Assembly (NCBI GenBank): GCA_002699585.1
Contig: PABP01000021.1
Location: 558,001-622,000, forward strand
Reading direction: 5' to 3'
Length of the DNA stretch: 64,000 bases
Origin: Anaerolineaceae bacterium
Lineage (GTDB): Bacteria; Chloroflexota; Anaerolineae; Aggregatilineales; Phototrophicaceae
Notes under the pieces: model-generated
What the model saw: the letters and a program-made list of their open reading frames with translations, nothing else
Databases searched by the model: none
Told to the model about the DNA's origin: nothing
Shown: in pieces, positions 2,767-57,349 of the stretch
Numbering within the stretch: position 1 is the first letter of the stretch
Layout: the number at the start of each line of letters is the position of its first letter
Made by a program: the position numbers and the translations under genes

Positions 2767-4071
2767 CTAGTTGTACAGGTGCGCGAATGGCGACTTGGGC
2801 ATTGTCTGCCTTTGCGGCTCATTGTGACGATCCGGCCCCAGCGGCAGCTTAATCACGCGATCATCGGCCAGCTTGGTCGCCTGCATCGCCCGGAACTCAG
2901 AAAAATATTCGGCGAATTTTGTGCTGTCTTTGAGCTCCAGCGGCAGGCCATCACGCCCGCGGTAGTTATCCCCCCACCATCCCCAGAACGCTCTCAGCTC
3001 GGAGATGTACGGCGCCGGGGTAAAAGCCATCAGCGCTTTGACCGTTTTGTTGATCCGGCCACGGGCGTCTTTTGTCAGATCGAGGGTTTCGAGTTCGGTT
3101 TTGGTCAACCGCGGGAAGTAGAACGCTTTGACGGCATCAAACAGCCCAGCTCGCACGATGATCTGCGCCTGCTTCTCAAGCTGCTCACAGTCAACAGTGG
3201 TCGAGGCGTTTTCGTCGCCTTTGGGATAATAAACTTTCTCATCATCGCCAGAGGTGCCCACGCGCGCACGCGCGTTAGTATTTATATCTATATCTGGTTC
3301 TTTAGAATCTAATCTTTTTATCTTATGAGTATTGGCCTGTTCAATTTGGACAGGTTTAGCGCCCTTTACCTGTTCATTTTGAGCACCTTTAGCGTCATTC
3401 GTGTTCAATTTGGACAGGTATTCGGGGGATTCCTGCTGCTCTTCCTTATATACGTGTTCATTTTGAACAGGTTTAGGCTCGTCAGATACCCGCTTTTTCG
3501 CCCCGTCTTGGGCCTCGGTGGATGCCTGCTCAGGTGCTTCGACAGCCGTGTCGCGTGCCATGTCAGCAGTCGCATCCACCCCGTAGATTTCCACAGCCAG
3601 CCGACCAGCCAGCCGATACGTATTGGCCTTGCTCCGACCGCCCCCGGTAGTGATATGCAGGTGCCCAGCCTTGGCCAACGCCTTGGTATACCGCCGCACA
3701 GAAGACACCGGGACGCCCGTCATCTCCGCCAGCTCCTCGTAGTTGCACGCGAGTAAATTGCGCTTCCACGGCAGATGACGCATGATCTTGGCCAGCATCC
3801 CTAGCAGCGCCACATCCAGCTCGTCGATGACGGCCCGTGGCAGCTTGGCGAAGTAATACCAGGCATCCCGCACGGGCGCTTCTGCTGCAGCGTTTTCAGC
3901 CTCAGAATCGCTCTGAGCGCCGTTTTCCGCTGACGGGGTATCATCCGCCGCAAGCACCACAGCAGGCAGCGCAGACAGCGCTTCTCCCGCGTCAGGGGTG
4001 GCTTCTAGGTCGATGTCTTCCAGGGTGCTGGCAGCCTGCCAGGCGTCTCTCGGTATCATACTCGGATCCAT
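2767..4071 (-). CDS. Replication-initiator-like protein with winged helix, origin inside the gene
   Basis: A protein of 434 residues. An acidic N-terminus (1-65) is followed by a winged-helix domain at about 75-155 (YEELAEMTGVPVSSVRRYTK is the recognition region), a low-complexity linker (165-285) and a helical C-terminal domain with aromatic stretch AFWGWWGDNYRGR. The architecture fits phage and plasmid replication initiators that bind the origin with the first domain and recruit the loader with the last. The linker DNA carries four iteron-like repeats and an AT-rich tract. The start is uncertain: ATG 4071 has no clear Shine-Dalgarno, and ATG 4059 is slightly better placed. The initiator role is inferred from architecture, context and embedded repeats, not from a specific family match. 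Confidence 0.7.
   Translation of the reverse strand: MDPSMIPRDAWQAASTLEDIDLEATPDAGEALSALPAVVLAADDTPSAENGAQSDSEAENAAAEAPVRDAWYYFAKLPRAVIDELDVALLGMLAKIMRHLPWKRNLLACNYEELAEMTGVPVSSVRRYTKALAKAGHLHITTGGGRSKANTYRLAGRLAVEIYGVDATADMARDTAVEAPEQASTEAQDGAKKRVSDEPKPVQNEHVYKEEQQESPEYLSKLNTNDAKGAQNEQVKGAKPVQIEQANTHKIKRLDSKEPDIDINTNARARVGTSGDDEKVYYPKGDENASTTVDCEQLEKQAQIIVRAGLFDAVKAFYFPRLTKTELETLDLTKDARGRINKTVKALMAFTPAPYISELRAFWGWWGDNYRGRDGLPLELKDSTKFAEYFSEFRAMQATKLADDRVIKLPLGPDRHNEPQRQTMPKSPFAHLYN
3278..3476. other. Candidate replication origin inside the initiator gene
   Basis: Four iteron-like repeats (3336-3476) lie beside an AT-rich tract (3278-3335, about three quarters A+T) and then an alternating purine-pyrimidine CGCGCGCACGCGCG at 3261-3274. 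This is the arrangement of the lambda origin, where iterons and an unwinding region sit inside gene O. One repeat is out of reading frame with the others, which argues for selection on DNA rather than on protein. The claim is inference from architecture and neighbouring genes. Confidence 0.7.
3336..3476. repeat. Four 21-bp iteron-like direct repeats
   Basis: Copies begin at TGTTC 3338, 3371, 3402 and 3455. The consensus core is TGTTCAWTTTGRRCAGGTTT, and copies 1 and 3 share 17 identical bases (TGTTCAATTTGGACAGG). Each copy has internal dyad symmetry (TGTTC against GRACA), weakest in copy 2. The spacings of 33, 31 and 53 bases are close to three, three and five turns of the helix, so all copies face the same side. 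Copies 1, 2 and 4 are in frame and encode related peptides (PVQNEHV, GAQNEQV, PVQIEQA), but copy 3 is shifted and encodes YLSKLNTN. Confidence 0.85.
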
Positions 4072-4096
4072 TCAGTCGTTGTCGTCTGTCGTTGGC

Positions 4097-4423
4097 TCAG
4101 CTCGCCAGTAACACGTCGTCCAGGTCAATCCACAGCCGAATGCTGCGCGGGACCAATCGTCCACGTCGCGAGCGGTTCACCGTGATATACCCCAACACTT
4201 CCAGCACCGGGATCACCAGGTACACGTAGCTCGTGCTCACCCCGGCCAGCGATGCCAGCTCGCGCAGCGTCGGACCGCTCGGGTGCTCATCGAACCACGC
4301 ATCCAGCGCCCGCAGGATCTTCTTCTGGCCATTTGTCAGGCCCCACCGCCGCGTGCGGTACACCAGCAGGTCGATGTATCGCCGTTGTTTATTCTGTCGA
4401 TTCATAATCGGTCTACTCATCAT
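4097..4423 (-). CDS. LexA-type winged-helix DNA-binding protein without peptidase domain
   Basis: The segment from LTNGQKKILRALDAWF (about residue 29) to RRGRLVPRSIRL (about 95) follows the pattern of the LexA N-terminal DNA-binding domain: two helices, the TLRELASLAGVSTSYVYLVI helix-turn-helix and a short wing. The protein ends there, at 108 residues, with no Ser-Lys autopeptidase domain, so it would not self-cleave. It may be the operon's regulator or an accessory of the initiator encoded 26 bases downstream. GAGG stands six bases before ATG 4423. It overlaps the upstream gene by 11 bases. The fold assignment is fairly secure; the regulatory target is unknown. Confidence 0.7.
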   Translation of the reverse strand: MMSRPIMNRQNKQRRYIDLLVYRTRRWGLTNGQKKILRALDAWFDEHPSGPTLRELASLAGVSTSYVYLVIPVLEVLGYITVNRSRRGRLVPRSIRLWIDLDDVLLAS

Positions 4424-4697
4424 CGATGACCTCGAATTGATTCACGTTCGTCACTTCGTACTGCCAGCGCGCCTTGGGCTTGTACCAGTAGCGGTTGACC
4501 TTGCCCCGCAGCCGAACCTGGCAGCCGCGTTCCATCTCCAGCCGCCGGAACCGTTTGCCATATGGCATCCACAGATGCTCTCGGAAGCGAGCGCCGTTCT
4601 CCGTGCGCACATTCACCAGCAGCATATGGCTGTCGTTGCTGCCATTGAACCTGGCGACCAGCGTCACCCGCTTCCCGATCAGCGCACGCTTGTTCAT
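4413..4697 (-). CDS. Small basic protein, possible OB-fold nucleic-acid binder
   Basis: A basic protein of 94 residues with an alternating strand pattern (KRVTLVARFNG, HMLLVNVRT, CQVRLRGKVNRYWY, YEVTNVNQFEVI) that would suit a single OB-fold, as in small single-strand-binding proteins. No family is recognised by motif and the fold is a guess from the strand pattern. Its ATG overlaps the stop of the upstream zinc-ribbon gene by four bases (ATGA), and its own 3' end overlaps the LexA-like gene, so it is translated as part of the chain. Confidence 0.6.
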   Translation of the reverse strand: MNKRALIGKRVTLVARFNGSNDSHMLLVNVRTENGARFREHLWMPYGKRFRRLEMERGCQVRLRGKVNRYWYKPKARWQYEVTNVNQFEVIDDE

Positions 4698-5383
4698 GCG
4701 TCTGCCTGCAGCATCCGCCGCTGGCGCTTATAGGATTGACTGCATTCGAAGCAATAATCCTGCAGCGTATGACCTGTCAGCCAGCGAGGTCGTTTATGGC
4801 ACCGATAGCACAGCAGCACCTCGCCTGCCATCACCCGCGCATATTCGCGCTTGTACTTCTCCTCGCGATACTGCTTGGCGTGTTTACGACGACAGGGTTT
4901 GCAATAGCTGCGCACTTGCCCACTCGCCATCACATGCTTCTGCCGGATGCCACAAGCTGGGCACAGTCCAGGGTTCTTCTGATACCCGAACAGGTCATGC
5001 CTGCGCTTAGCGATCTTCTTCAGGCAGGCATCGCAATACGGTTTACGCCGACCCGTGGCATAGGTGCCGCGCTCATGTTCACCGCACCGACAGCATATGT
5101 TGTCCCATCGCCGCTGGTCATACTCTCCCGGCGGAACCTCATAAATCGAGCAGGCTTTTAACCCGCGGCCTGTGATGCTGTACACCACATTCGCACGGTC
5201 GCCTTTGACACCCAGGCTGCGCACGATCCAGTCCCGCTTTTGCAATGCCCGCAGGCAGTTGCCATGCACATCATCCAGGCTGATAAATGGCCGCTCAGCT
5301 TCTTTGGCAGCCCGCAGCCGCTTTAGTACATCCAGCATCTGATCGGTACACAGGGGTAGGTTGGCCCGTTTCCAGGAAATCAT
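4694..5383 (-). CDS. Protein with winged-helix-like N-terminus and three tandem zinc ribbons
   Basis: A protein of 229 residues. The N-terminal 85 residues (MLDVLKRLRAAKEAERPFIS, then DWIVRSLGVKGDRANVVYSI) resemble a winged helix. After them come three Cys-pair units: CCRCG with YCDAC, LCPACG with YCKPC, and LCYRCH with YCFEC, spaced about 45 residues apart and linked by Lys/Arg-rich helices. The repeating CxxC ... CxxC layout indicates three bound zinc ions and probable nucleic-acid contact. It might be a transcription or recombination accessory; no catalytic motif such as HNH is seen. The ATG overlaps the upstream stop by one base. Confidence 0.65.
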   Translation of the reverse strand: MISWKRANLPLCTDQMLDVLKRLRAAKEAERPFISLDDVHGNCLRALQKRDWIVRSLGVKGDRANVVYSITGRGLKACSIYEVPPGEYDQRRWDNICCRCGEHERGTYATGRRKPYCDACLKKIAKRRHDLFGYQKNPGLCPACGIRQKHVMASGQVRSYCKPCRRKHAKQYREEKYKREYARVMAGEVLLCYRCHKRPRWLTGHTLQDYCFECSQSYKRQRRMLQADA

Positions 5384-5763
5384 CAGCCACCCTCCTTCTT
5401 CATGCGGAACAGGCGACTATGCAGATCAGCAAACCGTTCGTATTCGTCCAGACTCCACAGTTTTGACATCAGGGTAACAGTCTGAAGGATTCGCTCAGGC
5501 GTCGCATCCGGCAGGCCCTTGCTCGTATAGATCTCAGAGATCTCGGCTGCCAGCGCCTCCGCACCCAGGTCGACCATCATCTCGTCCGGCGTCATCCACC
5601 TGAGTGACGTTCGTGCTGCACCCAGGCCCACCGCAGCGCCCACCCGCACCATCTTGTCAGCGTGTCGCTGGCAGTAGTACAGGGGGCCATCGACCCACAT
5701 CACATGATGCGTTGCGGGCAGATCGCAGTCCTCTGCATGGCACTTGCGCACGGTCTCAGCCAT
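5383..5763 (-). CDS. Small zinc-binding protein, second of a tandem pair
   Basis: A protein of 126 residues. The N-terminus has Cys and His residues (CHAEDCDLPATHH, YCQRHADK) fit for one zinc. The C-terminal 60 residues are helical and match the C-terminus of the neighbour encoded at 5763-6119 (AEALAAEISEIYTSKG against AENIALEIAEFLNSKG, then WSLDEYERFADLHSRLF against WTADEFERFKDLQVRLF). The two are therefore diverged tandem duplicates. The ATG at 5763 overlaps the stop of the upstream gene by one base; a GTG codon three bases earlier is an alternative. Function unknown. Confidence 0.7.
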   Translation of the reverse strand: MAETVRKCHAEDCDLPATHHVMWVDGPLYYCQRHADKMVRVGAAVGLGAARTSLRWMTPDEMMVDLGAEALAAEISEIYTSKGLPDATPERILQTVTLMSKLWSLDEYERFADLHSRLFRMKKEGG

Positions 5764-52540: not shown

Positions 52541-53527
52541 TTACGGGACTTCCACACGTTTAAGCAGGTGCTCAATGATTTGCTGTGAAGTCACTGCTTC
52601 GGCTTGGGCTTCAAAGCTCAGGACCAGACGGTGACGCATAATGGCTGGCGTGATGAACTTGATGTCCTCTGGCGTGACATAGCCGCGACCTTCTAGGAAG
52701 GCATGGGCTTTTGCGCCTTTCACCAGGAACAGCGTCGCTCGTGGCGATACCCCATATTCGATCATTGAAGCCAGCTTCTTCGAACCCAGTTCCGCCGGAT
52801 CGCGGGTCATAAACACCAGATCGAGGATGTACTCTTTCAGGCGATCATCGACATAAATATCATCGACCACTCCCCGCGCATGGACGATTGCCTCTGGTTC
52901 GACCACGGCTTCGGCTTCTTCAATGGTATGCGTCGACATGCGCTCGATAATCTGGCGTTCCTCGCTTCGATTCGGGTAATCGACGACGATCTTCAGCATG
53001 AAACGGTCGAGCTGCGCCTCTGGCAGGGCATACGTGCCTTCCTGCTCAATCGGATTTTGCGTGGCTAACACCAGATAGGGGTCTTTGAGTGCGAATGTCT
53101 CTTCGCCCAGTGTAACCTGGCGTTCTTCCATTGCTTCCAGTAGGGCAGACTGCACCTTCGCCGGGGCGCGATTGATTTCGTCTGCCAGCACGATATTGCT
53201 GAAAATGGGTCCAGGCCGCGGGACAAAAGTATGATTGCCAGGATTATATATCTGGGTGCCGATGATGTCGGATGGCAGCAAATCCGGTGTAAACTGAATG
53301 CGCTTAAAATCTGCATTGAGGGATGATGCCAGCGTGCGAACAGCCAGCGTCTTGGCTAAGCCCGGAACACCTTCAATCAGGGCATGGCCATCGGCCAGCA
53401 ACGCCACCAGCATATGCCGAACCAGATCATCCTGGCCGACAATGATGCGCTGCATCTGCCTCAGAATATCTTTTAGAAAGGCAGATTCATCTTGGATGCG
53501 TTTGTTGAGTGCTTGTACGGATGCCAT
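52541..53527 (-). CDS. MoxR-type AAA+ ATPase
   Basis: From ATG 53527, 328 residues. A TTG codon 12 bases upstream is an alternative start. Walker A EGVPGLAKTLAVRTLA (GxxGxxKT), Walker B VLADEINRAPAKVQSALLEA and the sensor LATQNPIEQEGTYALPEAQL are typical of MoxR. MoxR ATPases act as chaperones that assemble metal-containing or multi-subunit complexes together with VWA proteins. It heads the Bat operon, which runs unbroken to 45951. Confidence 0.93.
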   Translation of the reverse strand: MASVQALNKRIQDESAFLKDILRQMQRIIVGQDDLVRHMLVALLADGHALIEGVPGLAKTLAVRTLASSLNADFKRIQFTPDLLPSDIIGTQIYNPGNHTFVPRPGPIFSNIVLADEINRAPAKVQSALLEAMEERQVTLGEETFALKDPYLVLATQNPIEQEGTYALPEAQLDRFMLKIVVDYPNRSEERQIIERMSTHTIEEAEAVVEPEAIVHARGVVDDIYVDDRLKEYILDLVFMTRDPAELGSKKLASMIEYGVSPRATLFLVKGAKAHAFLEGRGYVTPEDIKFITPAIMRHRLVLSFEAQAEAVTSQQIIEHLLKRVEVP

Positions 53528-53602
53528 AGTTGTACTCAAACGTCTTCTACAAATTCAGTCTACAGCCAGACGGGCATCAGGACAATTGAAACTGGCGATA
53601 TT

Positions 53603-54193
53603 TTACGTTTCCGTAGCATGATCCAGATGCGGGACGCGATGGCAGGTCCGACAGCGCGCTTCATAACTTTCCTGCGCACCGACCATGATAATGGGATCTT
53701 CGTAATGGGCAGGCTTGTTATTGACCAAACGTTGTGTCCTGCTGGCTAGATCACCACATACTACGCAGATTGCATGTAGCTTGGTGACTTCCTCTGCGAC
53801 GGCCAGCAGTTGTGGCATGGCACCAAACGGCTCACCACGGAAATCCATATCCAGCCCAGCCGCGATGACGCGAATCCCGCGTTCAGCTAGGCGGTCAATA
53901 ACTTCGATAATGCCTAGCTCAAAAAATTGAATTTCATCAATGGCGACAACGGTCGTCTTTTCTTCAAGATGGTCCATGATGGCTTCTGGTTCAGCGACAG
54001 GCACGGCTTCAATGTTCTGGCCATCGTGGCTTTTGACCACTTGAATGCCATAGCGATCATCAATCTGGGGCTTGAATACCTGGATATCTTGCTTGGCAAT
54101 CACAGCACGCCGAACGCGCCGAATCAGTTCTTCCGTTTTTCCAGAAAACATACTGCCGCAAATAATCTCAAAGCGGCCCGCATGATGCTTCAT
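53603..54193 (-). CDS. tdk: Thymidine kinase, TK1 type
   Basis: Phosphorylates thymidine in the salvage route. From ATG 54193 (AAAGG nine bases before) 196 residues. Walker A GSMFSGKT is at 13-20, the [10 protein letters not shown] segment supplies the lid Asp/Glu, and the zinc-binding Cys are in [16 protein letters not shown] and RCRTCHRVP. Codons further upstream are not supported. Independent of the neighbouring MoxR operon. Confidence 0.95.
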
Positions 54194-54310
54194 CGTGGCG
54201 CCTTTCTGATGACGTGCAAAGACGAATGTCAAGCACAATGAGGATAATGAGTTTGAGTTCGTGCGAAATTATAGCGAAAAGTAAAGCAACATGGATGGTT
54301 GCTTCAATAA

Positions 54311-54342
54311 AACAGATGTGCCAAGTCCTTGGCACATCTGTT
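54311..54342 (-). terminator. Strong terminator after the bL31 gene
   Basis: Perfect arms of 15 bases (54311-54325 and 54328-54342, reading AACAGATGTGCCAAG and its complement) round a two-base centre, followed on the minus strand by TTTTA. It lies 24 bases after the bL31 stop. Confidence 0.9.
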
Positions 54343-54366
54343 AACTAGCGGATCGTGTAGTACGAT

Positions 54367-54852
54367 CTATTCGGCTTCGCCTTCAGCCTCGTCGGCCGTT
54401 GGTAATTCATAGCCCCGATTGCGCAGGCTCTTCTTGATGTCACTGAGTGCCTGACGACCAATGCCTGAGAGGCTCAACAAGGCTTCTTCACCTTCTTCAG
54501 CCAGCTTATCAAGGATATGCTGAACGATGGTGATGCCATTTTCTTCAAGGATGTTCAGGTGGCGCTTACCCAGTCCCAGTTCTTTCAAGGGCAGGTCGGG
54601 TGGCGTCAATGCCTGGGCTGCGGCTTCACGTTCGGCCTGCATTTCATCGCGCAAACGCAGACGCTTCATGAAGGTATCAACACGGCCTTCGGTATCAACG
54701 ATACGCTGCTGGCCAGTGTAGAAGGGGTGGCAGTTGGAGCAAATTTCAGTCTGCATGGTTTCAACTGTTGCCCCAGTGCGCCATTCTGTGCCGCAGGACA
54801 TACAAGTCACAACAGCATCAGAGAACCACTGTGGGTGAATTTCTTTCTTCAT
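54367..54852 (-). CDS. rpmE: Ribosomal protein bL31 fused to an alpha-CTD-like helix-hairpin-helix domain
   Basis: Residues 1-70 are bL31 of the zinc-binding type: MKKEIHPQWF, with Cys17, Cys20, Cys38 and Cys41, and HPFYTGQQRIVDTEGRVDTF. Instead of ending there, the protein continues over a short linker into residues 88-150, which match the C-terminal domain of the RNA polymerase alpha subunit (LKELGLGKRHLNILEENGIT, LLSLSGIGRQALSDIKKSLR), keeping Arg97 and Asn100 at the positions of DNA-contacting Arg265 and Asn268. Total 161 residues, about twice normal. Read through without frameshift; a GAGGAG site precedes ATG 54852. A small hairpin at 54873-54892 precedes the gene. Confidence 0.85.
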   Translation of the reverse strand: MKKEIHPQWFSDAVVTCMSCGTEWRTGATVETMQTEICSNCHPFYTGQQRIVDTEGRVDTFMKRLRLRDEMQAEREAAAQALTPPDLPLKELGLGKRHLNILEENGITIVQHILDKLAEEGEEALLSLSGIGRQALSDIKKSLRNRGYELPTADEAEGEAE

Positions 54853-54930
54853 TTTGTCTCCTCACAACACGGCTCTGCTCACATTAGCAGAGTGGCGTGA
54901 TGCACATTTGGATGATAAAGCGACAGAATG

Positions 54931-55203
54931 CTACTGTTGCGGTAGCTCTGCGACAACGCTAATTTGTTTTTGGCCACTGCGATTGCGCATACGCTCGAAG
55001 ATGACATAGCCTTCCGTCGTTGCGAAGATCGTGTGGTCTTTGCCGATACTCACATTCTCACCGGGGTGGAATTTCGTACCGCGCTGGCGAACGATGATAT
55101 TGCCAGGAATGACATACTCACCGCCGAATTTCTTGATACCAAGTCGCTTCGAATTACTATCGCGACCATTGCGGGTTGAACCGCCACCTTTTTTGTGGGC
55201 CAT
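54931..55203 (-). CDS. rpmA: Ribosomal protein bL27
   Basis: A protein of 90 residues: [20 protein letters not shown] is diagnostic, and the [18 protein letters not shown] segment is conserved. The N-terminus starts directly at MAHKKG with no cleaved leader as in Firmicutes. It follows the bL21 gene by 32 bases, in the usual order bL21-bL27. Confidence 0.97.
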
Positions 55204-55235
55204 GAGGGCCGCCTTTCTGCTTTAACAGGACGATG

Positions 55236-55547
55236 CTAGTTTGAAATTTCACCGATGCGCAAGCGAGTGTGATACTGGCGATGCCCACGCTTTACACGGT
55301 AATTGGTACGTTGACGGTACTTAAACACGATAACCTTCTCGCCACGGAACTGTTCTTCGACAGTTGCAGTGACGCTAGCACCATCCACAGTGGGGGTGCC
55401 AATGACTGAGTTCTCACCATCGCCAATCATCAAGACCTCATCAAATGTAATGGTCTCGCCGACTTCCTGGGGCAGACGTTCAACGTCAATGACAGCACCC
55501 GCTTCAGCGCGATATTGGCGTCCAGCAATTTTTACAATAGCATACAT
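55236..55547 (-). CDS. rplU: Ribosomal protein bL21
   Basis: A protein of 103 residues: MYAIVKIAGRQYRAEAGAVI, and the C-terminal KYRQRTNYRVKRGHRQYHTR that packs on 23S rRNA. GGAG lies upstream of ATG 55547. The gene leads the bL21-bL27-bL31 group, with a strong promoter at 55703-55731. Confidence 0.97.
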   Translation of the reverse strand: MYAIVKIAGRQYRAEAGAVIDVERLPQEVGETITFDEVLMIGDGENSVIGTPTVDGASVTATVEEQFRGEKVIVFKYRQRTNYRVKRGHRQYHTRLRIGEISN

Positions 55548-55865
55548 AACGTTTGGGCTCCAACCTTCACTTAATCTCCGCTGTCGAGTACCTCAAAGGG
55601 GTCAACAAACGAGGAAAATTGGTGATTTTGAATTTTCAGCGTGCATCACAGTCGTGATAGTCGCTAGACGAACAAAAAGCCCCGCTTGTGCGAAGCTTTG
55701 GTATTATACGGGCCGGACAATCTTGCGTCAACGCTGATTTGTCTGCCGAAGTGACGGTCAGGCTGATCTCGATGAGCCGATTGATTATGTCCTATGCTCT
55801 CTGGCAGATTTCTCTATAATCTGTATAGTAGTATTCCTATTCGTTAGCATATCGGATTTGGTCAT
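55548..55865. other. 318-base intergenic region with divergent promoters and rplU leader
   Basis: The region contains no reading frame that looks real. It holds the promoter and about 150-base leader of the bL21 gene on the minus strand and a possible -10 box (TATAAT, 55815-55820) for the cupin gene on the plus strand. A ten-pair stem (AAAGCTTCGC with GCGGGGCTTT on the minus strand, 55698-55674) followed by TTTTTG begins at the expected transcription start of the leader. Confidence 0.6.
55703..55731 (-). promoter_or_regulatory. Sigma-70-type promoter of rplU-rpmA
   Basis: On the minus strand TTGACG (55731-55726), a 17-base spacer and TATAAT (55708-55703). This is the closest match to the consensus seen in the window and suits a ribosomal protein operon. 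Confidence 0.85.
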
Positions 55866-56255
55866 ATGTCATTTGTGACGAAACATGTTGCCGAAGAATG
55901 CGATGTTATTGCCCCGGATGGCTCAGAGATCCGGTTGCTCCCAATACTCAGTGCAGGTAGCATGGTGCATGTCACGCTGCGACCAAATCAGGTTTCACTG
56001 GCCATCACACATAAAACTGTGGAAGAAATCTGGTATGTACTGTCGGGTAAAGGGGAAATGTGGCGCAAGGATGGTGATAATGAAACTATCACGACGCTGG
56101 AACCGGGTTGCTCATTGACGATTCCACTCGGCACCCATTTCCAATTCAGGAACTTACTCAGCGAGCCTCTACAACTCATCCTGGTCACTATGCCACCCTG
56201 GCCAGGTAACGACGAAGCTATTTCTGTACCAGGACGTTGGCCCACTGAAGATTAG
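55866..56255 (+). CDS. Cupin-domain protein
   Basis: A protein of 129 residues with one cupin fold: VSLAITHKTVEEIWYVLSGK, GEMWRKDGDNETITTLEPGC and LTIPLGTHFQFRN. The first metal motif has only part of the His set (ITHKTVEEIWYVLSGKG), so the metal site may be altered. Substrate unknown. A -10 box lies about 45 bases upstream. Confidence 0.8.
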   Translation: MSFVTKHVAEECDVIAPDGSEIRLLPILSAGSMVHVTLRPNQVSLAITHKTVEEIWYVLSGKGEMWRKDGDNETITTLEPGCSLTIPLGTHFQFRNLLSEPLQLILVTMPPWPGNDEAISVPGRWPTED

Positions 56256-56284
56256 GACCTCAGCAGGCCACCTCAAACTTTGTG

Positions 56285-57349
56285 CTAGCTAATGAACATC
56301 GCATCGCCAAAGGAAAAGAAACGATAATGCTCTTGCTTGGCCGTTTCATAGGCATGAAGCACATTGTCTTTCCCTGCAAACGCGCTAATCATCATGAGTA
56401 GCGTAGACTTCGGCAAATGGAAGTTAGTAATCATGGCATCGACCACGCGCCATTTATAGCTGGGATAGATAAACAACCGCGTATCCTGCTCAAACGCGAT
56501 CACAGGTCGCCAGGGGCACATATTTTCTGAAGCTGCCGGGTTTGCTGGATCACCCCCCGCACTTAAGATGCCCGCTGTTTCTAACGTCCGCGCTGATGTC
56601 GTGCCAACAGCGATGATGCGTCCCCCTGCCAGCTTGGCGTCATTGATAATCTTCGCATTAGTCGCATCTAGCGTCGCGTATTCACTGTGAATCACATGCT
56701 CCGTGATGTCATCGACCTTTACCGGTTGGAAGGTATCCAGCCCAATATGCAGCGTGCAGTACGCCATCTGGACACCCTTATCGCGCAGGGCAATCAACAG
56801 ATCAGGTGTGAAGTGCAGCCCTGCTGTGGGTGCCGCCGCTGAGCCTTCGATCCGACTGTATATAGTCTGGTAGCGTTCAGAATCTTCAAGTGTCTCGTGG
56901 ATATAGGGAGGCAGGGGGATTTGCCCATTGGAATAGACCAGGTCATCAATCGCCTGATCAAATTGCAGGATACGCTGCGGGCCTTCACGCTCTGTGATGA
57001 CGGTTGCTGTAATGCCATCTTCAAAATCAAGTACACGGCCTTCAGTGACGCCCTTACCCCCTACGATGACCAGCCATTTCAGACTACCCAGGTCACGCAA
57101 CAGCAAAACTTCTACCTTGCCGCCTGTGTCCTGTTTAGTCGCATAAAGCCGACCAGGGATCACGCGGGTATTGTTCATAACCAGCACATCACCTGGGTAC
57201 AGCATGTCCAAAATGTCAGAAAAAGCATGGTGGTCCACAGCACCCGTTTCTCGGTCAAGGGTCATCAACTTTGAGCTATCGCGTGGTTCGACAGGGTGTT
57301 GTGCGATGTAGGATTCCGGCAGATCGTAGTCAAATTCTTGGAGTTTCAA
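56285..57349 (-). CDS. queA: S-adenosylmethionine:tRNA ribosyltransferase-isomerase QueA
   Basis: Forms epoxyqueuosine on tRNA with the ribosyl part of SAM. The start is TTG 57349, one base past the ruvB stop, with GAGG about nine bases before; the protein then begins KLQEFDYDLPESYIAQHPVE, the family's usual N-terminus, while longer forms would carry an odd extension. Motifs RDSSKLMTLDRETG, GRLYATKQDTGGKVEVLLLR and TNFHLPKSTLLMMISAFAG are typical. 354 residues. No tgt or queC is in the window. Confidence 0.94.
   Translation of the reverse strand: MKLQEFDYDLPESYIAQHPVEPRDSSKLMTLDRETGAVDHHAFSDILDMLYPGDVLVMNNTRVIPGRLYATKQDTGGKVEVLLLRDLGSLKWLVIVGGKGVTEGRVLDFEDGITATVITEREGPQRILQFDQAIDDLVYSNGQIPLPPYIHETLEDSERYQTIYSRIEGSAAAPTAGLHFTPDLLIALRDKGVQMAYCTLHIGLDTFQPVKVDDITEHVIHSEYATLDATNAKIINDAKLAGGRIIAVGTTSARTLETAGILSAGGDPANPAASENMCPWRPVIAFEQDTRLFIYPSYKWRVVDAMITNFHLPKSTLLMMISAFAGKDNVLHAYETAKQEHYRFFSFGDAMFIS

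Follow-up and report, generated by a model that had tools for sequence, protein, structure and literature searches.

An RNA polymerase alpha-CTD-like domain at the C-terminus of ribosomal protein bL31 in an Anaerolineaceae bacterium and its relatives

The ribosomal proteins bL21 and bS16 occupy separate sites, on different ribosomal subunits. In the E. coli alpha-CTD, the residues R265, N268, G296, K298 and S299 belong to the DNA face, and NusA-AR2 contacts the alpha-CTD through residues of that face. Binding of NusA-AR2 to the alpha-CTD in E. coli is described in two papers (PMC4642336, PMC12297416). The ribosomal protein bL31 bridges the central protuberance, at uL5, and the head of the 30S subunit, where its C-terminal part lies at uS13; E. 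coli bL31 is also an autogenous translational repressor of its own mRNA, an activity carried out by its disordered N-terminal segment (part of PMC10931766). No description of a protein that joins bL31 to an alpha-CTD was found in the titles and abstract starts of the papers listed by full-text searches of an open-licence library, which is weak evidence of absence as subscription papers lie mostly outside it.

The window analyzed here, a stretch of 64,000 nucleotides from an Anaerolineaceae bacterium, contains an rpmE gene whose bL31 product carries, at its C-terminus, a domain of the RNA polymerase alpha-CTD family. The gene, its parts and its surroundings are as follows.

54367..54852, minus strand: rpmE fusion gene, bL31 plus alpha-CTD-like domain, 161 amino acids (open reading frame, Pfam, alignment with 53 homologues)
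54661..54852, minus strand: zinc-type bL31 part, residues 1-64 (Pfam Ribosomal_L31, alignment)
54601..54660, minus strand: linker, residues 65-84 (AlphaFold model; the predicted helix 55-82 enters the linker from bL31)
54403..54600, minus strand: alpha-CTD-like domain, residues 85-150 (Pfam RNA_pol_A_CTD, VIA-align, residue table)
54931..55203, minus strand: rpmA (bL27), the adjoining gene upstream of rpmE (open reading frame, gene order)
55236..55547, minus strand: rplU (bL21), the first gene of the cluster (open reading frame, gene order)
53603..54238, minus strand: tdk (thymidine kinase), the adjoining gene downstream of rpmE (open reading frame; named by eye from the sequence, start codon uncertain)
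54311..54342, minus strand: perfect 14-bp hairpin directly 3' of rpmE, then a T-rich stretch (sequence)
55703..55731, minus strand: sigma-70-like promoter match upstream of rplU (TTGACG-17-TATAAT, 11/12)

The rpmE frame opens with ATG and runs for 161 codons and a stop. Like E. coli L31 and other members of the zinc type (PF01197), it begins with 64 residues that hold four cysteines: Ribosomal_L31 matches residues 1-64 (E 2.9e-26, 91.9 bits against a cut-off of 27), and the zinc-binding C17, C20, C38 and C41, which make this a C+ type bL31, are invariant in an alignment of 54 rows. The original prediction had read bL31 and an alpha-CTD-like domain in a single frame at 54367-54852, as the open reading frame and Pfam confirm; it had also put the second domain at residues 85-151, and this extent was right, the Pfam match covering 85-144 and the domain being taken here as 85-150. 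The genome as a whole (6.7 Mb in 42 contigs) has a single bL31 match and two alpha-CTD domains over the Pfam cut-off, in rpoA (75.6 bits) and in the rpmE fusion; a search of the genome with a profile of alpha-CTD-like domains returned the same two, with all else at E 0.4 or worse. A separate, ordinary rpoA is thus kept, and the domain on rpmE is not part of the alpha subunit.

The gene order bL21-bL27-bL31 is intact in all 97 loci examined, that of the window included, and a Tdk gene lies beside the bL31 gene in 89 of them. The hairpin behind rpmE is likely the terminator of rplU-rpmA-rpmE, resembling an intrinsic terminator. The RNA of 54300-54350 folds at -24 kcal/mol (z -5.65); the terminator scan does not list 54311-54342. 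The promoter scan of the region gave 3 matches against 1.4 expected. Upstream of rplU, at 55676-55731 on the minus strand, a promoter-like site runs straight into a hairpin that resembles a terminator, and the two may form an attenuator leader. An RNA leader in this operon was rejected as a candidate, Rfam giving no match over 53500-56500 at E up to 1.

The domain that follows bL31 is firmly placed in the alpha-CTD family. In the window protein RNA_pol_A_CTD (PF03118) passes its curated cut-off of 23.8 narrowly, at 24.8 bits (E 1.8e-5, residues 85-144), and two other fusions score 59.0 (L164) and 35.8 bits (L166). NCBIfam models of rpoA match the tail, the best at 3.1e-8 (positions 235-317 of the 320 in the model). 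A phmmer search of PDB sequences puts the T. thermophilus alpha-CTD at the top (1.4e-6). A profile of such domains, built from 29 bL31 rows and 4 bS16 or bL21 rows with families f8, f97, f117 and f121 left out, finds alpha-CTD chains from 1.1e-14 among solved structures and the first other protein at 7.3e-5, in the best 60 of 84 rows. The AlphaFold2 model, of the monomer only and made with the alignment of 54 fusions (mean pLDDT 77.5, pTM 0.41), predicts a long helix at 55-82, which would link bL31 and the domain without a break, and tail helices at 89-92, 96-104, 110-120, 123-126 and 133-146. Foldseek with this model returns bL31 chains and RNA polymerase alpha subunits. The first 38 VIA-align rows are without exception RNA polymerase entries, aligned over the alpha-CTD (Z from 10.3 down to 8.6), and Dmc1 follows at Z 8.4, a small margin in a range, below about 13, where Z may reflect an arrangement common to helical folds. 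Because other helix-hairpin-helix folds trail so closely, the distinction between them and the alpha-CTD rests on the sequence profile. The N-terminal helix-hairpin-helix domain of RAD51/Dmc1 is similar in fold (Z 8.4 and below) but ranks below the 38 RNA polymerase rows and gives no sequence match among the profile matches listed.

The alpha-CTD relationship that had been proposed is therefore upheld by Pfam, NCBIfam, phmmer and the domain profile together. A different predicted fold and a closer similarity to a generic helix-hairpin-helix family, both named beforehand as findings that would speak against the proposal, were looked for and not seen: the predicted fold ranks alpha-CTD entries first, and HHH_5 (PF14520) stays below its cut-off of 27, with 14.9 bits for the whole protein and 17.0 for the domain alone. 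What bears on the third such finding, cleavage of mature bL31 before residue 85, is the predicted continuous helix of the linker and the purifying selection on the domain described below. A generic helix-hairpin-helix domain was rejected on this score and because the profile puts alpha-CTDs far ahead. A phage origin was rejected as well: among 50,697 phage records, a tblastn search with the domain gave no match at E up to 0.01.

The spread of the fusion, which the original prediction had left to be examined, proved wide within the host class. In the host family, bL31 is matched to residue 136 or beyond in 90 of the 98 genomes searched. A contig end truncates one further bL31 (G022) and also one among the 90 (G026). 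The other seven genomes, which are 63-85% complete, lack a bL31 match; six give a single weak match (E 3e-8 to 3e-5), the seventh gives none, and the two weak matches that are listed fall in RpoA-sized frames. Among the matches listed for the 98 genomes, no complete bL31 without the domain was found. A draw of 301 genomes from the phylum gave 28 of 38 genomes of the same class with a match to residue 146 or beyond, and none beyond residue 135 among the matches listed for the 263 genomes of other classes, one of which (G255) has a match up to residue 135 that reads through two stop codons.

The 396 genomes drawn from the class represent 60 families, and the fusion is found in many of them. Besides the family of the window, each of the remaining 59 was then searched in one or more genomes, 60 in all: 20 genomes of 19 families were picked as fusion-positive, and each of the other 40 families, with no fusion listed in either draw, was represented by its first listed genome. 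In these 40 fusion-negative genomes the bL31 match stops by model position 91, with one exception at 119, where the tail is an Ala/Lys-rich stretch. Of the 60 class families sampled, 20 contain the fusion in one genome or more, and family f105 is mixed, G467 having the bL31 fusion and G442 lacking it. The unfused bL31 tails inspected in full are varied and charged, range from about 15 to more than 200 residues, and lack the domain. It is also missing, unlike in the window protein, from 74 of the 75 bL31 loci taken from named genomes across many phyla; the one carrier (L060) is a 'Chloroflexi bacterium', from which the phylum is taken to be Chloroflexota, the class being probably Anaerolineae. 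Throughout the host family the fusion is the form that bL31 takes, and a third of the class families sampled include one or more genomes with it.

The domain evolves under purifying selection, which is weaker than on bL31 itself. The ratio of summed dN to summed dS is 0.037 for bL31 residues 1-66, 0.090 for the linker (28 pairs) and 0.120 for the domain, over 29 close, non-independent pairs among 32 fusions with whole-gene dS of 0.05-0.9. The fusion is more than chance because the same architecture is present in 53 homologues that are 37-76% identical to the window protein and in nine tenths of the host-family genomes, with a low dN/dS in the domain. A chance or mis-joined reading frame, or an assembly artefact, was rejected on its recurrence in that family.

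The bL31 domain shares with the RNA polymerase alpha-CTD (PF03118; E. coli RpoA 249-329, T. thermophilus 1doq) the profile, the fold, the GhG hairpin and the arginine at the R265 position. It differs in sitting on bL31 with no alpha N-terminal domain before it, in having mostly lost N268, N294 and S299, and in a basic helix 4 present in 50 of 54 fusions. These comparisons set 54 bL31 fusions and 36 RpoA proteins of the host class against E. coli RpoA (NC_000913.3); the 54 are the window protein and 53 of the 89 other fusion loci fetched, picked for diversity, and family f8 is absent because the selection motif missed L057, L168 and L169. Arginine and asparagine at DNA-contact positions had been part of the original prediction. 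Both align in the window protein, Arg97 with R265 and Asn100 with N268, and 53 of the 54 fusions retain the arginine; the asparagine, however, is kept in only 21. Gly132 corresponds to G296 (G in 52 of 54), Gln134 stands at the K298 position (K in 41 of 54) and Ala135 at that of S299 (S in 19, V in 19, A in 14). Only 3 of the 54 have all five DNA-face residues together, whereas each of the five is invariant in host-class RpoA (36/36). R293, N294, N268 and S299, invariant in that RpoA, are not kept in the bL31 copies.

A different set of residues has become conserved in helix 4. K304 (50/54), K305 (44/54) and R308 (49/54), which are Lys140, Lys141 and Arg144 in the window protein, are characteristic of the bL31 fusions and are not conserved in RpoA. 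The mean net charge of the stretch 297-314 is +3.74 in the 54 fusions, compared with -0.06 in the 36 RpoA proteins and +0.20 in 15 NusA copies. It rises to +3.98 in 50 of the fusions, and in the remaining four (L164-L167) the net charge is 0 in f105, 2 in f97, -1 in f121 and 2 in f117. The bS16 and NusA copies also lack the basic helix, so it fails to explain all carriers. The domain as a whole is not basic, with a mean net charge of -0.24, calculated from sequence alone. It appears that the hairpin face was partly kept and that a new basic helix arose in the main lineages only. The bL31 domain is an alpha-CTD homologue that need not have UP-element function. A three-residue insert after helix 2, absent in E. 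coli, is common to the bL31 (54/54), RpoA (36/36) and NusA (15/15) copies, and this points to an origin within the phylum.

Other proteins of the class carry the domain as well. PF03118 matches the C-terminal part of bS16 in L178:1615-2199 (minus strand, 43.0 bits) and L195:1047-1541 (plus strand, 45.0 bits), and falls under the cut-off, at 18.3 bits, in the bS16 of L226:1793-2761 (minus strand); these carriers come from families f90, f120 and f6. The structure predicted for the bS16 fusion of L178 from its single sequence has a mean pLDDT of 49.5 and is not relied on. The domain is C-terminal on bL21 in L176:2164-2757 (minus strand, 51.8 bits) and L177:1077-1613 (plus strand, 44.0 bits), and the bL31 of the cluster is unfused there. 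All seven genomes of f90 (four) and f120 (three) have a domain-bearing frame of 204-244 codons that is neither bL31 nor RpoA; only in G400 and G455 does Pfam confirm the carriers as bS16 or bL21. G478 and G545 each have one domain-bearing frame about 0.3 kb upstream of bL31, the bL21 position. The bL31 genes found in these two families (in G400, G478, G545 and G455) lack the domain. Because the order of rplU-rpmA-rpmE is intact in G400 and G455 and bL21 carries the domain, it sits there on another gene of the same cluster.

In NusA of the host class, 15 copies in 14 proteins were aligned. NusA_N is present in all 7 of the proteins scanned with Pfam, and PF03118 exceeds the cut-off in 6. These domains recall the acidic-repeat or helix-hairpin-helix domains at the C-terminus of NusA, in that host-class NusA ends in domains found by the same profile; they differ from the bL31 domain in their carrier and in lacking basic helix 4. 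The NusA of G467 (L189:1619-3637, minus strand) has two alpha-CTD-like domains in tandem, with 120 bits in all. In the window genome, the profile search found no such domain on NusA; that protein (L241) has 628 codons and a long acidic tail, before which a decayed alpha-CTD-like domain can be made out by eye. The beta' subunit of G418 (L193:232-4701, minus strand) has a domain of this type inside its chain, at residues 727-786 (25.1 bits). Further copies are found on a polyphosphate kinase 2, PPK2 (L187:557-1606, plus strand), on an HTH protein (L190:643-1137, plus strand) and at the N-terminus of two larger open reading frames, one of them with N_BRCA1_IG (L186:1100-3814 and 4063-5499, plus strand). 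A bactofilin-like protein (L188:1460-2737, minus strand) has a weak one, under the cut-off at 18.1 bits, and a frame of 1120 codons has three matches to the fusion profile (G497:C14:5304-5951, plus strand).

The domain may descend from the domains of alpha-CTD type that RpoA and NusA of the class already had, and then have been re-specialized. The bL31 domain of G467, from family f105, shares 80% identity with one of the NusA domains of its genome, whose gene lies on that contig too, against 63% with the closest RpoA and 51% with the closest bL31 copy from elsewhere, and it groups with both NusA copies of its genome (94/90, not starred). The sister genus represented by G442 has a bL31 without the domain, and no bL31 was found in G415, which was checked beside it. 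A separate origin of the fusion in G467 is likely, although not proven, from these sequence comparisons. The tree of 117 domains rests on 69 columns and its bootstrap is unsettled; in it, f97, f117 and f121 have bL31 copies that split off (98/89) with two long-branch NusA rows. A single clade of the 13 bL31 domains outside these three families is not rejected (p-AU 0.215, with 34 rows and few columns); the corresponding values are 0.042 when the bS16 copies from f90 and f120 are made a single clade and 0.073 for the bL21 copies. The tree of RpoA N-terminal parts, intended as a species tree, was poorly resolved.

What the domain does on bL31 can be approached from these observations. We tentatively favor, at somewhat short of an even chance, a nucleic-acid-binding domain that bL31 tethers to the ribosome. 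It would be translated as part of bL31, as the frame and its conservation indicate, and, as the genome has no other bL31 match, the fusion presumably reaches the ribosome. If bL31 is placed as in other species, it would anchor the domain at the subunit bridge between the central protuberance and the 30S head; the long helix 55-82 would hold it out, in an orientation that the monomer model (pTM 0.41) does not fix. The conserved residues suggest that the phosphate backbone could be gripped by the hairpin face with Arg97 and Gly132, together with basic helix 4. As a guess, the likeliest ligand would be RNA at or close to the ribosome, either mRNA or rRNA from the region of the head or bridge, promoter DNA being less likely because the promoter-DNA residues are relaxed and basic residues have been gained. 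Helix-hairpin-helix domains bind proteins too, which counts against a nucleic-acid ligand. The main rival, which we regard as rather unlikely, is that the domain mimics the alpha-CTD and docks on an AR-type domain of NusA, on sigma, on an activator or on upstream DNA; this would keep ribosomes or subunits under assembly close to RNA polymerase and so couple translation or ribosome assembly with transcription. The host class has the same type of domain on RpoA, NusA, one beta' and bL31, bL21 or bS16, and three ribosomal carriers at separate sites suit a shared partner more than a single rRNA site. The contact of NusA-AR2 with the alpha-CTD in E. coli provides a precedent (parts of PMC4642336, PMC12297416). 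Such docking sits poorly, however, with a NusA, in the genome of the window, whose decayed domain is visible only by eye and with the loss from bL31 of four residues that class RpoA keeps invariant. Nor is there a clear link with NusA, whose domain is found in 7 of 20 fusion genomes and 7 of 40 non-fusion genomes among the matches listed, frames of 550-755 codons being taken as NusA by size. A broader form of this idea, to which we give a lower probability still, is a hard-wired coupling specific to the class, in which alpha-CTD copies on bL31, or on bL21 and bS16, dock ribosomes or their precursors on the transcription apparatus, and the carrier changes while the function stays.

Two further explanations seem improbable to a similar degree, well below those above. 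Free bL31 fusion might act outside the ribosome, feeding back through its domain on its own operon or on ribosomal promoters. In its favor is the autogenous repression by E. coli bL31, which nevertheless comes from the disordered N-terminal segment (PMC10931766). The constant rplU-rpmA-rpmE order, with the domain on the bL21 of that cluster in f90 and f120, also speaks for it; the presence of the domain on bS16, from a different locus, and the empty Rfam search of the operon speak against it. The domain might instead be a passive, lineage-specific extension, an accidental join that folds and serves as a harmless spacer or bridge stabilizer with no ligand. The C-terminus of bL31 tolerates additions, since unfused tails vary so widely, and the domain evolves faster than the protein that bears it; but a dN/dS of 0.12 still means strong constraint, Arg97 hardly varies, and in two families it is bL21 and bS16, rather than bL31, that bear such domains. 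That the domain is useful rather than accidental is suggested by this purifying selection, and by the other ribosomal proteins that carry it in two families lacking it on bL31.

A small and otherwise standard ribosomal protein thus carries a domain of the RNA polymerase type in a third of the class families sampled. Should it bind RNA on the ribosome, as we tentatively favor, the domain would add a new element to the subunit bridge; binding to NusA, polymerase or DNA would make it a coupling device built into the ribosome. As the domain is a discrete, deletable C-terminal unit, either reading is directly testable, and families without it, or with it on bL21 and bS16, offer natural comparisons. 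The fusion, together with the change of ribosomal carrier among relatives, hints that, in this class, the ribosome may be linked with transcription or with nucleic acids.
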